Assembly (NCBI GenBank): GCA_900696575.1
Contig: CAADHD010000030.1
Coordinates: 1-42,489, forward strand
DNA length: 42,489 nt
Reading direction: 5' to 3'
DNA from: an uncultured Bacteroidota bacterium
Lineage (GTDB): Bacteria; Bacteroidota; Bacteroidia; AKYH767-A; OLB10
Below the pieces are notes generated by a model. It searched no databases. It saw only the letters and a list, made by a program, of their open reading frames with translations, and was not told where the DNA came from. The first letter of the stretch is position 1, and every line of letters starts with the position of its first letter. Below are positions 36,692 to 42,185 of this stretch, one piece after another. The translations under genes were made by a program, and so were the position numbers.

Positions 36692-39600
36692 TTATCTCAA
36701 CACATGAACCCTGCCGGTGAATTCGCGTTGTTTCAATCCGCCATCAAAACGGATGCGGTAAACATATACGCCATTCGGGGCATCGGTGCTGCTGCCTTTT
36801 ATTTTTCCGTTCCAGCCTTCAAATCCGTTTGAAGAACTGAACACCACATTTCCCCATCGGTTCATAATCATCATTTCATAAGGAGGCATGGCATGACCAA
36901 CAGGCATGAATACATCATTCATTCCATCGGTATTCGGACTGAAAGAATTCGGAATGTAAATAGTTGTTACTTCTTCCACATACAATTCTCTGCTTAGTGA
37001 ATCTACACAACCGTCAGCGCTGGTGGCTATAAGTTGCACAGTATAATAACCGGCTTCCCGGTAAGTATGTTGCGGATATTGAACAGAACCCGAAGTGCCG
37101 TCTCCGAAATTCCACAGCCATTGAGTCGTGTTCTGCGAAGCATCAACAAAATCAAAGAAGGGATTCAGAATAGTGGCTTGAGGAGGTTTAATGGTGAAGG
37201 AAGGAACCGGCAATTCAAAAACCGTAATGGTGAAGGAATCCGTACGCTGAACAGAGCAGGAATCGGTAACGGTAACAGTGTAGGTAGTCGTAACCGGTGG
37301 AGAAAGTGTATAGTATGTCTGATTGCCGAGGTTGTTGTTCCAGGTATAATAATAAGGCCCGCCATTTCCTCCGGTGGTGTTTACTTCAAGAAATGCTTCT
37401 TTGCCGAAACAGATGGAAGGCGTTCCGGTAATTTCAGGGTCAAGTGGCGGCAGCCTGTCAATAATAATTTGATTAGATAAGACAGGATTTGCCGAAGGAC
37501 AATGCACCGATGAGGTCAATATAGCCTGCAGCGTATCGCCATGTTGCATGGTGGTACTGCTGAATGACGGAGCAGTAATGCTTAACGGATTTCCGTTTAC
37601 TGTCCATTGATAAAGCGGATAGTTTCCTTCGTTGTTAACTGCCGAGGAGTAAGTAATGTTCATCCCGTCACAGAAAGTGCCGGGCGGGTTGGCAGCTATG
37701 GAAATGGCAGGAGTAAGTATCGGGTCTTCCTGAATGATGTAAGTGAATGAAGTATCTGTAGGTGGAAGTACACAGGTGGCATTGGAAGTAAGCACTACGG
37801 TTATTTCATCGCCATTATTCAAAGCGGCAGAAGTAAAAGCAGAAGTGTCTGTTCCCGTTGGAATGCCGTTTACAAACCATTGAAAGTGTGGCGCAACACC
37901 ACCGTTAGTCCATGTTGAATGAAAAGTAATGGGTGTTCCGTCACACACTACCGTATCGGGTTGGGCAGTAAATGTGATAAAGGGAATGAGATTCGGATTC
38001 ACAGAAATCACTTTGATGTTAGAAAGTGCAGTAGCCTGCGTTAAACAGGTTTCAGAGGAAGTAAGTCTAACTCTTACGTTATCTCCGTTTACAATACTGT
38101 TGGTGAGAAAAACAGGCGAGTTATTTCCGGCAGGAGCTCCGTTTACAAACCATTGATAAGTTGGCGAACTTCCACCATTAACAGGCGTGGCTGTAAACTG
38201 AACAAAATCATTCGGGCAGATGGTATCAGCCGTTGATACAATGGTAACTGACGGGGTAAGGTTCGGATTCACCGTCATCACTATCAGGTTGGAGGTATCA
38301 GTTGGTTTTGACAAACAAACTTCATTGCTGGTAAGTACTGCTTTGATTACATCACCGTTTTGTAAAGAAGAGGATGAGTAGGAAGAATTGTTTCCCCCTG
38401 CAGGGTTACCGTTAACAAACCATTGATAAACCGGAGTGGATCCTCCATTCTGAATGTTAGAATTGAAAGTAACCTGTGCCCCGTCACAAACAGGTCCTGC
38501 CGGATTGGCCGTAATAGCTATTGCCGGAGTAACTATCGGGTTAACCGTCATTACAATCATGTTAGATGTATCTGCAGCAGGCTGCACACAGGTTTCATTA
38601 CTCGTCATCACTACTTCAATTCTGTCATTATTATTTAAGGTTGAGCTTAAAAATGTAGGGTTGTTGGTGCCTGTATTGATTCCGTTTAGTTTCCACTGAA
38701 AGGCTGGCGCTGCACCGCCATTAACCGGAAAGGCAGTGAAGGTAACAGGGTCGCCATCGCAAATAGGCCCGGATGGATTAGCCGTAATGCTCACCTGCGG
38801 AACAAGGTTCGGATTTACGGCCATGGTTAGCACGTTGGAATTAACCACAGGCGGAACGGGACAGGCCGCTGATGATGTCATGCTTACCTGTATGTTGCTG
38901 TTATTGGCAAGCGATGAAGTGGTAAAGGTTGGCGAATTGCTTCCGGCAGGAGTACCGTTTATGGTCCATTGATAGGAGGGCAATGCCCCGCCAGCAACCG
39001 GAGTGGCGGTAAAGGTTACGGTTGTTCCATCGCAAACCGGGCTTGCAGGAACGGAATTTATGCTTACTGAAGGCGTCACATTAGGATTGATAACAGCCTG
39101 TATAATATTGGAAGTGGCATTAGGCGCTGTTTTGCAGAGGAGGTTGCTGGTAAGAATACAGCGCACCTGAGCACCGTTAGTAAGCATGGTGGTGGTAAAT
39201 ACAGCACTGTTAGGGCCGGAGTTAACACCATTGACCTGCCATTGATAGAAAGGAGCTGTGCCGCCATTCGCGCCAACGGCTGTAAACGTAACCGCTGTTC
39301 CGCTGCATACCGGAAAGGCAGGGCTGTTGCTGATGCTGACCGATGGAGTAAGATTAGGATTAATCGTTACGACAATCACATTCGAATTGGCAGTGGCTGA
39401 AGTTGCACAGGGCGAATTGGAGGTTAGTGTAACGCTTACGGCATCGCCATTCTGTAAGGCGGAAGTGATAAATGTACTGCTGTTGGTTCCGGCATTCACT
39501 CCGTTTACTTTCCATTGATAGGAGGGTGCAGTGCCACCGAGAACGGGCGTAGCTGTAAAGGTTATATCCTGTCCGGCACATACCGGCATAGCCGGGCTGG

Positions 39601-41698
39601 CCGTAATGCTTACCGATGGAGTAGTGGGGGCATTAACTGTCATCACCACCACATTAGAATTAGCACCGGCAGGGTTCGGGCAACTGGCCGATGAGGTCAT
39701 AATAACCTGCACCTGGTCGCCATTGTTCCAGGTAGAAGAGGTATAAGTACTGCTGTTACCGCCAACATTCACTCCGTTAACCTGCCATTGAAACGATGGT
39801 GTGCTGCCCCCGTTGCTTGCAGTGGCGGTAAAGGTTACCGTTGCTCCCGGGCAGATGGCTCCGCTAACGTTGGGGGTAATGGTTACCTGCGGAACCGTTA
39901 CCGGATACACGGTTATGGTTATCACATTTGAAGCAGCAGAAGGGCAGTTGGCATCGGCTGTTAAACTAACAGACACATTACTGCCCATTGTCAAAGCGGA
40001 ACTGGAATATGTTGTTGAATTGCTTCCGACATTTACACCATTCACCTGCCATTGATAAACAGGCGTGGCTCCGGGGTTTACCGGTACTGCCGTAAACGTA
40101 ATATTGGTTCCTGCACAAACGGGTCCTGCCGGTATGGCTGATATACTAACCGATGGAGCAATGAACGGATTCACCGTCATCACAATGACATTAGACACTG
40201 CATTGAATGCTGAGACGCAAACCGAATTTGAAATCATGCTGCAGGTTATCACATCTCCGTTATTCAGCGTTGATGAGGTAAATGTTGTTGAATTGCTTCC
40301 AACAGGATTTCCGTTCAGAAACCATTGATACTGCGGATTGGTTCCTCCGAAGGTTGGTGTGGCCGTAAACGTTACCAATGTTCCTGTACAGATAGGACCT
40401 GCCGGATTGGCGGCAATACTGATAGCCGGAGTAGGATTGGGCGGTGCAGGCAATACATTGATGCTGTAAACCACATTCGTCTGCATGGGCGGGCAGCCGT
40501 TATCAATCACATTTACCAGAAACTGATACGGTGCAGGTTGCGCCATACCGCATTCCGTACTCCAGCAGAACAACGAGTTAACAATACCGTTACCCGCGGC
40601 ATTCGGCATGCTGGCCGGAGGATTTACCACTGCTCCGTTAAAGATATTTCCTGATGGGGTAAGGAAAAGACTGTCGCCATTCGGGTCAACAAATATGGAA
40701 GGAAAGCAAAGCGTTTGCCCTTCCACTACATTAAACGTGGTGCTTCCACTGCCTCCTGTAGCAGAAAGATTGGGAGGATTATTAGGCGGGCAGGCAATGG
40801 CTATCAACTGCAAATCTCTTCTGATGGCCGAAATCAATTGCCCGTTACGGTATTCTTTAATCTCAATTACCACCACATAAAATCCCTGATTGGGGATGTA
40901 GTAAGAAGTAAGACCGGTAACCGGATTGATGCCGGCATATCCGCCCGCGCCAAACGGATCAGTAACAGAGTACCCACCCGTATAAATGGCTTCCGGTATG
41001 GGCATGGCATAAGGATTCAGATCAATCTGCGGATCAGGAATGGCTGTTCCTGTTCCTGAATATCCGATGTAAGGAATCTCAAAACTGTAAACCAATACAT
41101 CTCCGTCAGGGTCAACAGCATTGTTAACTATGTTTACCGTATCGCCAATGCAGAGGTAAGGAACGGGTATATCGCTGAACAGGGGCGAACTGTTTATAAC
41201 AGGTGCAGGAGGAATAAACGTGTAATAGGTCATTCCTATACTTCCGGGTGAACTCAGGTTTACAATGTTGCCGTTTCGGCAGCAACGCTCAACTATCAGA
41301 TGATAACCTCCGGCATTGGGCGGCAGCGAAACATCCGACTCATAAATTCCTTCTTCCACACATACCGAAGCGTTGAAATTACAATTGATTCCCGGTGATG
41401 GCGGAGTGATAAACATCTGGCTCGTAATGGGCATAATGCTCGTTTCATACCAGTCCTTATCAGCATTCGGTAAGGCAGGGTCCTGTAGAAAAATACCAAG
41501 CAAAGCCTGCGGGTCAAGTGTAGCTGTGCCTCCTGTGCAATAGCGGTAAATCTTTAAGGTAACGTGATAATTATTATTCCCTCCGCTCTGGCCGGTGTAC
41601 CGGTATGTAAGACTGCCACCCATCAGGTGAGTGGCGCGGGCGCTGTAATGAACCAGCATAACAGCCATTATGCCCGCAATAAGTGTTAGTTTTTTCAT
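36692..41698 (-). CDS. Giant Ig-repeat surface protein with PKD domain and T9SS class-B C-terminal domain
   Basis: The 1668-residue protein has a signal peptide (MKKLTLIAGIMAVMLVHYSARA). An N-terminal domain beginning THLMGGSLTYRY, seen in other Bacteroidetes surface proteins, extends to about residue 420. Eleven tandem Ig-like repeats of about 91 residues follow (about 424-1418), with core motifs PxCxGxxVTFTA, YQWxVNG and a late conserved Cys that likely forms a disulfide with the first. After them come a further beta-rich domain, a PKD domain (WLWNFGDGTSG...HTY, near 1525-1575) and a class-B sorting domain (IPNSFSPNTDGMNDVF, MNRWGNVVF, GVYVYRI). It is probably a long fibrous surface adhesin exported by T9SS. 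Unlike the SprB-like gene it has no adjacent PorP/SprF gene. Confidence 0.9.
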   Translation of the reverse strand: MKKLTLIAGIMAVMLVHYSARATHLMGGSLTYRYTGQSGGNNNYHVTLKIYRYCTGGTATLDPQALLGIFLQDPALPNADKDWYETSIMPITSQMFITPPSPGINCNFNASVCVEEGIYESDVSLPPNAGGYHLIVERCCRNGNIVNLSSPGSIGMTYYTFIPPAPVINSSPLFSDIPVPYLCIGDTVNIVNNAVDPDGDVLVYSFEIPYIGYSGTGTAIPDPQIDLNPYAMPIPEAIYTGGYSVTDPFGAGGYAGINPVTGLTSYYIPNQGFYVVVIEIKEYRNGQLISAIRRDLQLIAIACPPNNPPNLSATGGSGSTTFNVVEGQTLCFPSIFVDPNGDSLFLTPSGNIFNGAVVNPPASMPNAAGNGIVNSLFCWSTECGMAQPAPYQFLVNVIDNGCPPMQTNVVYSINVLPAPPNPTPAISIAANPAGPICTGTLVTFTATPTFGGTNPQYQWFLNGNPVGSNSTTFTSSTLNNGDVITCSMISNSVCVSAFNAVSNVIVMTVNPFIAPSVSISAIPAGPVCAGTNITFTAVPVNPGATPVYQWQVNGVNVGSNSTTYSSSALTMGSNVSVSLTADANCPSAASNVITITVYPVTVPQVTITPNVSGAICPGATVTFTATASNGGSTPSFQWQVNGVNVGGNSSTYTSSTWNNGDQVQVIMTSSASCPNPAGANSNVVVMTVNAPTTPSVSITASPAMPVCAGQDITFTATPVLGGTAPSYQWKVNGVNAGTNSSTFITSALQNGDAVSVTLTSNSPCATSATANSNVIVVTINPNLTPSVSISNSPAFPVCSGTAVTFTAVGANGGTAPFYQWQVNGVNSGPNSAVFTTTMLTNGAQVRCILTSNLLCKTAPNATSNIIQAVINPNVTPSVSINSVPASPVCDGTTVTFTATPVAGGALPSYQWTINGTPAGSNSPTFTTSSLANNSNIQVSMTSSAACPVPPVVNSNVLTMAVNPNLVPQVSITANPSGPICDGDPVTFTAFPVNGGAAPAFQWKLNGINTGTNNPTFLSSTLNNNDRIEVVMTSNETCVQPAADTSNMIVMTVNPIVTPAIAITANPAGPVCDGAQVTFNSNIQNGGSTPVYQWFVNGNPAGGNNSSYSSSSLQNGDVIKAVLTSNEVCLSKPTDTSNLIVMTVNPNLTPSVTIVSTADTICPNDFVQFTATPVNGGSSPTYQWFVNGAPAGNNSPVFLTNSIVNGDNVRVRLTSSETCLTQATALSNIKVISVNPNLIPFITFTAQPDTVVCDGTPITFHSTWTNGGVAPHFQWFVNGIPTGTDTSAFTSAALNNGDEITVVLTSNATCVLPPTDTSFTYIIQEDPILTPAISIAANPPGTFCDGMNITYSSAVNNEGNYPLYQWTVNGNPLSITAPSFSSTTMQHGDTLQAILTSSVHCPSANPVLSNQIIIDRLPPLDPEITGTPSICFGKEAFLEVNTTGGNGGPYYYTWNNNLGNQTYYTLSPPVTTTYTVTVTDSCSVQRTDSFTITVFELPVPSFTIKPPQATILNPFFDFVDASQNTTQWLWNFGDGTSGSVQYPQHTYREAGYYTVQLIATSADGCVDSLSRELYVEEVTTIYIPNSFSPNTDGMNDVFMPVGHAMPPYEMMIMNRWGNVVFSSSNGFEGWNGKIKGSSTDAPNGVYVYRIRFDGGLKQREFTGRVHVLR
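37445..40429 (-). repeat. Eleven tandem Ig-domain repeats, 273-bp period
   Basis: The conserved YQW codons (seen on the plus strand as CCATTGATA and variants) occur at 37604, 37877, 38150, 38420, 38693, 38966, 39239, 39512, 39785, 40049 and 40322. Spacing is 273 bp in eight of ten intervals, with one each of 270 and 264. Each unit is 91 codons. Confidence 0.85.
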
Positions 41699-41717
41699 GG
41701 GGAGGTCAATTCCTTTT

Positions 41718-41725
41718 CAAAAGTA
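41718..41725 (-). promoter_or_regulatory. Promoter -7 element TACTTTTG for the Ig-repeat protein
   Basis: Exact TAnnTTTG on the minus strand, 19 bp before the start at 41698. No good -33 is at the expected spacing. Confidence 0.55.
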
Positions 41726-41804
41726 AGCAATTCCTGACAAGTGAGGCCTGATGGTTTTCATACTCTTTTTTACCTTTATGCCCACATCTTTAATACCTGC
41801 ACTC

Positions 41805-42185
41805 ATGCGCAATTACCTCTTCCTTCTTCTTGTTCTTATGGCATCTTCAGCCATTCATGCACAAACCCGCTGCATCCTTATAGGTGATAAAAGCGAAGCT
41901 GCCGTTCAGCAGCTTCTTCAATGGTCAGAAACGCCTCCTCTTTCTGCCCGGTGCGGAAAAGAAAAAGTCATTCTTACCTCTTTCGAGTTTACCATCTTCA
42001 CCAAAAAGCCCCTTCAATCCAAAACCTTCGGCCTTGGCGACCGTGGCGGCATCCCCATCATGGCCCATCAGGCACTCAAAGAACTACAGCCGGGCGCTAC
42101 CGTTATCCTTAAAGACGTAACAGCCCTTAATCCTGACAACACCGAAATCAGGATTGACAATATCTCAGTAGTTATTACTGAGTAG
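41805..42185 (+). CDS. Small secreted protein resembling the C-terminal domain of GldM
   Basis: The frame is open from 41751, but MRNYLFLLLVLMASSAIHAQ at 41805 is a clean signal peptide, giving 126 residues. The rest reads VILTSFEFTIF, a middle segment, then HQALKELQPGATVILKDVTALNPDNTEIRIDNISVVI. This resembles the last Ig-like domain of GldM, the T9SS motor-stator protein, whose family pattern is a VTSFxVxV strand, a helix before an LxxGxxVxFxxI strand, and a final hydrophobic strand. GldM itself is over 500 residues with an N-terminal membrane helix, so this would be a free periplasmic single domain. It is divergent from the Ig-repeat T9SS cargo gene. A near-consensus TACCTTTA lies at 41771-41778. 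The family match is from memory of the pattern and only moderately sure. Confidence 0.55.
   Translation: MRNYLFLLLVLMASSAIHAQTRCILIGDKSEAAVQQLLQWSETPPLSARCGKEKVILTSFEFTIFTKKPLQSKTFGLGDRGGIPIMAHQALKELQPGATVILKDVTALNPDNTEIRIDNISVVITE

Follow-up and report, generated by a model that had tools for sequence, protein, structure and literature searches.

P0001, a protein of 126 residues encoded close to one end of the contig studied here, is, as judged from sequence profiles and a predicted model, an exported stand-alone homologue of GldM domain 4 (D4), and its tip-domain shape and the retention of its gene by close relatives suggested that it may tune the T9SS motor. D4 is the C-terminal domain of the proton-driven GldLM/PorLM motor, and it touches the GldKN/PorKN ring beneath the outer membrane. 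The window, meaning the whole stretch of DNA that was analysed, is an entire contig (42489 bases), which stops 304 bases past the P0001 gene. The gene and its parts were placed as follows.

41805 to 42185, plus strand: P0001 gene, encoding the 126-residue stand-alone GldM-D4-like protein (open reading frame, orthologues, dN/dS)
41805 to 41861, plus strand: signal peptide, residues 1-19, with a probable cut before Q20 (read from the sequence and from the family alignment A1)
41871 to 42179, plus strand: predicted D4-fold domain, residues 23-125, with element order b-a-b-b-b-a-b-b-b (AlphaFold2 model, VIA-align)
41871 to 41873, plus strand: Cys23, present in 21 of 21 orthologues when counted from the frames (the A1 row of L003, trimmed by hand, begins past it)
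41952 to 41954, plus strand: Cys50, present in 19 of 21 orthologues and absent from L011 and L021
42000 to 42035, plus strand: hairpin and next strand, residues 66-77 (conservation, contrast with GldM, residue mapping)

A secreted protein of 126 residues had been proposed here by the first-pass annotation, and an open reading frame with a signal peptide was indeed found at 41805-42185. The ATG at 41805 gives 126 residues, and an in-frame ATG at 41751 would yield 144; the former was preferred because its signal peptide lines up with those of the orthologues, an agreement that is partly by construction, as the orthologue starts were set at the Met preceding the hydrophobic stretch. The cleavage region reads A-I-H-A-Q-T-R-C by eye, with no lipobox, and the signal peptide, whose residues had low confidence in the AlphaFold2 model, is the sole hydrophobic stretch of the protein. 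No T9SS type A or type B sorting domain was detected (no CHU_C, TIGR04131 or TIGR04183 match at E <= 1), nor is P0001 a full-length motor protein, since TIGR03517 needs more than 180 bits, an N-terminal TM helix and D1-D4, and no NCBIfam match was obtained at E <= 1. With no D1-D3, lipobox or T9SS tail, and with the signal peptide as its only hydrophobic part, P0001 is most unlikely to act as a motor or to be a cargo, and it would be expected to remain periplasmic, presumably as a Sec-exported, soluble single D4 domain. Many orthologues (for example L102:10001-10459) carry a linker of variable length, rich in Lys, Pro, Ala and Ser, between signal peptide and domain, and P0001 has no such linker. 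Near the contig end, 42368-42401 of the window holds a perfect inverted repeat of 16 nt around a 2-nt loop; with a T run following on the minus-strand side, it is terminator-like for that strand. Rfam gave no match within the window.

The case for D4 is weak by single-sequence tools and strong when relatives are included. The Pfam model GldM_4th (PF12080) matched residues 87-124 of P0001 with 15.3 bits (E 0.033), under its gathering cut-off of 24.6 bits, and a PDB sequence search with the single protein found no GldM and nothing relevant. When the A1 family profile (21 rows) was compared with 29 GldM sequences, it aligned at their extreme C-terminus (Prob 92.3, E 5.5e-7), while the best of 50 column shuffles against the GldM profile reached 2.6; against GldM D4 alone, hhalign gave Prob 96.2 and E 2.8e-9. 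Three of the GldM rows had been found with the same P0001 profile, and the comparison was repeated without them, giving Prob 84.7 and E 6.7e-6 for full GldM and Prob 94.1 and E 1.3e-7 for D4, with a best value of 4.6 among 100 column shuffles against that reduced D4 set. Identity between the P0001 family and GldM D4 was about 15% across the aligned part. The family HMM was also run on 562 proteins (61 stand-alone, 29 GldM and 472 neighbours), and 42 GldM or stand-alone proteins outranked the first of the 472 unrelated neighbours; the three highest ranks went to GldM of L097-L099, which were earlier matches of the same profile. Left out of the ranking were L157 and L158, truncated at contig ends, L124, L138, L140 and L159, for which the wrong ORF had been picked, and L087 and L096, which lacked a start or had a broken frame. 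In a profile search of 395 genomes of the class, seven matches lay beyond the own family. Three of these were GldM D4, as read from their frames (E 1.9e-4 to 7.2e-4 per genome), and the remaining four (E 1.8e-4 to 0.008) covered positions 2-65 at most, that is, the signal-peptide end, the best of them being as strong as the best GldM match. GldM was also missing from the results of a profile search against PDB sequences; the rows that this search gave, mitochondrial uS17 (best E 0.045) and one phosphatase, were taken as chance.

The AlphaFold2 model of P0001, made from ten sequences (P0001 and nine homologues), had a pTM of 0.71 and a mean pLDDT of 82 (about 89 for residues 21 onwards). The six best PDB matches of this model in Foldseek were all PorM, and GldM (6EY4) came at rank 19 with E 0.22. 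VIA-align gave Z 9.9, 9.8 and 9.1 for PorM and Z 8.1 for GldM over 98-102 residues, and the next entry had Z 5.6; the best match was to PorM 404-516, with an rmsd of 2.8 over 98 residues. Mature P0001 is accordingly modelled as one domain with the whole D4 fold of GldM/PorM. The element string b-b-a-b-b-b-a-b-b-b, which ends a passage of Leone et al. and is taken to be that of D4 (PMC5790014), has one strand more at its start than the P0001 model. P0001 has whole-domain fold and profile homology in common with the GldM/PorM D4 (PF12080; PDB 6EY4, 6EY5, 6EY6 and 7CMG), but it differs in being a free exported domain of 126 residues that stays under the Pfam cut-off and has neither D1-D3 nor a motor helix. 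The likeness to the final GldM domain, first noticed by eye in the first-pass annotation, was upheld by a profile-profile match above shuffles and by the D4 fold of the model, and the HMM and structure comparisons with GldM domain 4 that it had called for gave Prob 94.1-96.2 and Z 8.1-9.9.

Orthologues were present in 21 of the 24 genomes of the own family and in none of 76 others (100 genomes, own included). In the family genomes G008, G011 and G015, whose assemblies have 270-410 contigs and 88-97% completeness, the gene was not found, also by profile, and the profile matches in G011 and G015 covered only positions 1-53 (E 0.18 and 0.31). The dN/dS was 0.04-0.10 in nine orthologue pairs and 0.19 in the most divergent pair. 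By this measure P0001 is a real gene under purifying selection. It is scarcely credible that P0001 is a decaying fragment of a duplicated gldM: it does match the C-terminal piece of a larger gene, but it has kept a signal peptide, its frame is open in 21 genomes, and all dN/dS values lie within 0.04-0.19. Within the family, Trp40 is the single most conserved residue, and P69 and G76 are invariant within residues 66-77. The hairpin K-K-P-L (residues 67-70) was the most conserved of the defined segments, with a mean JS of 0.695, while the same hairpin in 29 GldM D4 sequences scored 0.486, under the domain mean of 0.544; this comparison concerns four residues with self-chosen limits and two alignments of different depth. 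Trp40, Cys23 and Cys50 are conserved as much as the hairpin or more, and Cys23, Cys50, Trp40 and Pro69 are specific to the P0001 family when set against GldM/PorM D4.

PF12080 matches were found in 348 of the 395 class genomes, many of which hold further short ones, and single strong matches in this survey were taken as GldM. Counts of stand-alone proteins refer to the 188 genomes (61 + 60 + 67) with a complete list of PF12080 matches. Among these are 127 that, except for G062, had been picked for showing more than one match or just a weak one, so the 127 are not a random sample. The 61 stand-alone proteins collected comprised 22 under 175 residues, D4-only by length, and 39 longer ones; five of the longer proteins matched GldM model positions within 312-523, four that were scanned with Pfam matched GldM_3rd and GldM_4th, not all above the cut-offs, and some stand-alone proteins carry a lipobox by eye. 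Tandem D3-D4 mini-GldM genes occurred as four copies in L119:6315-9093 (minus strand) and as two copies each in L111, L113, L122 and L145. As in P0001, the final one or two GldM domains of the other stand-alone PF12080 proteins come after a signal peptide or lipobox, and a motor part is absent; unlike P0001, these proteins belong to different sequence groups and other families, and some stand in tandem or beside an ECF sigma gene, whereas the P0001 family is found in one family only and escapes the Pfam cut-off. As far as these sequence surveys go, truncated GldM relatives are widespread in Bacteroidia families.

A direct run of an ECF sigma gene, a gene for a single-TM protein of 514-590 residues without a Pfam family, and a D3-D4 mini-GldM gene was observed in L112, L126, L133, L135 and L136; L114 has the same run with one small gene between, and L122 and L153 have the TM gene only. 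Pfam was the basis of these assignments for the sigma genes in L126 and L135 and for the TM genes in L112, L126, L133 and L135, and BLAST clusters were the basis for the others. By gene order, the run resembles a sigma/anti-sigma unit with a link to GldM domains. The single-TM family extends beyond this operon: 39 of 76 genomes gave matches at E <= 1e-6, and many of these were partial. In L133:5816-8651, five small genes follow the ECF sigma and TM genes, and at least two of them have a PF12080 match.

The P0001 gene is divergent from its large neighbour, and the features between and beyond them are given below. TAnnTTTG is the Bacteroidota -7 element.

36692 to 41698, minus strand: gene for a 1668-residue type-B T9SS cargo with Ig repeats, PKD and CHU_C (Pfam/NCBIfam domains)
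41699 to 41804, no strand: 106-bp divergent intergenic region between the cargo gene and P0001
within 41699 to 41804, minus strand: TACTTTTG, which fits TAnnTTTG, 19 nt before the cargo ATG
within 41699 to 41804, plus strand: TACCTTTA, 26 nt before 41805

The neighbour of 1668 residues had been called a T9SS cargo in the first-pass annotation, and Ig, PKD and CHU_C/type-B sorting domains were all present. The divergent pair and its common intergenic region would suit P0001 as a cargo-specific adaptor for the adjacent type-B protein, but the neighbourhoods seen elsewhere make such a role very unlikely. At 20 orthologous loci, two of which (L023 and L036) lack the neighbour on one side at a contig end, no T9SS cargo gene was adjacent among the best 25 neighbour families. 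The scan covered 74 genes within two places (38 adjacent), called by a simple longest-ORF rule, and used C-terminal pieces of 110 residues with Pfam, and for 10 of the 74 also with NCBIfam. As the family tallies give the best 25 families (in one orthologue-neighbour tally, the best 25 of 36), families of one or two members may be hidden. The orthologue neighbours included ribH (lumazine synthase), TPR, PTPS and hybrid histidine kinase genes, a sigma-70 gene with DUF2279, a C1-type peptidase gene with a uracil-DNA glycosylase gene, and further genes that, read from sequence, we take to be dnaA, rpoD and one for an LMW phosphatase. At L035 and L042, a large protein two genes off carried a weak T9SS-A-like tail that scored under the cut-off.

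Stand-alone D4 or D3-D4 genes elsewhere were likewise not enriched next to cargo genes, as a TIGR04183 (type-A tail) gene was found in 6 of 99 adjacent genes versus 11 of 150 controls. The controls were genes 3-5 places away (150 of 167, 17 near the list end being left out by hand), two of the 99 near genes were placed by hand (L088:7376-7705, replacing a probable spurious ORF, and L093:6-335, which runs off the locus), and the test covered adjacent genes only. As far as seen, the pairing of P0001 with a cargo gene appears specific to this window. The idea that free copies adapt the motor to the cargo next door thus lost its support, and a conserved neighbourhood with T9SS cargo genes, the lack of which the first-pass annotation had itself said would speak against it, was not found as far as tested; what stands of that annotation is the stand-alone exported GldM domain 4 homologue, not the tie to the adjacent cargo.

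In the same genome, gldK, gldL, gldM and gldN follow one another, together with a PorP/SprF-family gene, and the genome's own GldM has 545 residues and a TIGR03517 score of 355.9 bits. We tentatively prefer, at somewhat less than an even chance, that P0001, a free D4 without a motor, attaches to the GldN/GldK ring and tunes how motor and ring engage. On this view it would dock where D4 does, on the GldN side of the ring; lacking a motor of its own, it would be a non-driving occupant (a cap, spacer or brake) that tunes the number of ring sites open to a motor. That P0001 may cap or compete with the motor is the reading we prefer. According to the accessible text of PMC5790014, PorM D4 by itself is enough for PorN binding in a two-hybrid assay. 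The accessible text of PMC12421860 reports a cross-link between PorM S460C and PorN A241C in E. coli cells making both, and models in which one D4 of the PorM dimer sits in a cleft between PorN copies and the other D4 is free. PorM S460 mapped to K67 of P0001, in the conserved hairpin, by a profile alignment that crosses a low-confidence stretch here; the numbering offset of 9 used for this was deduced and places a Ser at 460. The hairpin, which aligns to a site of PorN contact in PorM, is conserved in the P0001 family and variable in GldM, and we infer that the free D4 may keep a ring-facing contact. The accessible parts of PMC12635249 model the tip in the same PorN cleft with weak confidence and term the D4-PorN surface not substantially conserved, so a common fold need not retain binding.

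A stand-alone D4-type gene was counted in 43 genomes, including those of L114, whose gene runs off the contig, and L117, whose gene has no clear signal peptide; in 41 of the 43, GldM_4th also matched a frame of 500 residues or longer. Since 348 of the 395 class genomes have a GldM_4th match, this co-occurrence is weak evidence. The two genomes without a long GldM frame, G013 (206 residues) and G097 (297 and 86 residues side by side), look like they hold GldM pieces. No conserved neighbourhood of P0001 with T9SS genes was found at the 20 orthologous loci, which counts against a motor role. The D4 fold may instead have been reused for an envelope function unrelated to T9SS, for example with another periplasmic protein or ligand and a Cys23-Cys50 disulfide, which we regard as a serious though rather doubtful possibility. 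The mostly housekeeping-type neighbours, the low identity to GldM D4 and the family-specific Trp40, Cys23, Cys50 and Pro69 are in its favour, and Trp40, Cys23 and Cys50 could, from their conservation, serve another partner; the long GldM frames in 41 of 43 genomes (from the 188 listed in full) and the alignment of the conserved hairpin to the ring-contact site speak against it. P0001 might also pair with GldM's own D4, packing with it at the motor tip and changing the dimer head without involving the ring. The D4 domains do pack together in the GldM dimer, but isolated PorM D4 gave no self-interaction in the two-hybrid assay (both in the accessible text of PMC5790014), and such pairing seems improbable. 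A link of P0001 to GldK through a free Cys, by analogy with SprF and PorG as described in the accessible parts of PMC12635249, was considered as well.

Extending the preferred reading of P0001 as a ring-binding D4, Bacteroidota might encode a class of free GldM tip domains, comprising D4 alone and D3-D4 mini-GldM, which would take up places of the motor on the GldKN ring or track and serve the T9SS/gliding motor as clutches or brakes, some of them reporting motor state to gene expression via an adjacent ECF sigma factor and membrane protein, although we consider this wider proposal unlikely as a whole. Among titles and abstract starts, with subscription literature mostly outside the scope, no paper describing stand-alone GldM domains was found, and none was found linking GldM with sigma/anti-sigma. 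P0001 is a variant of a known domain that lacks the motor and for which a specific role is proposed, and its family, one among the truncated GldM relatives, escapes the curated models. It bears on how GldLM/PorLM motors engage, share and release GldKN ring or track sites; a docking domain that occurs naturally in soluble form would offer a tool ready for use and might also be a regulator.
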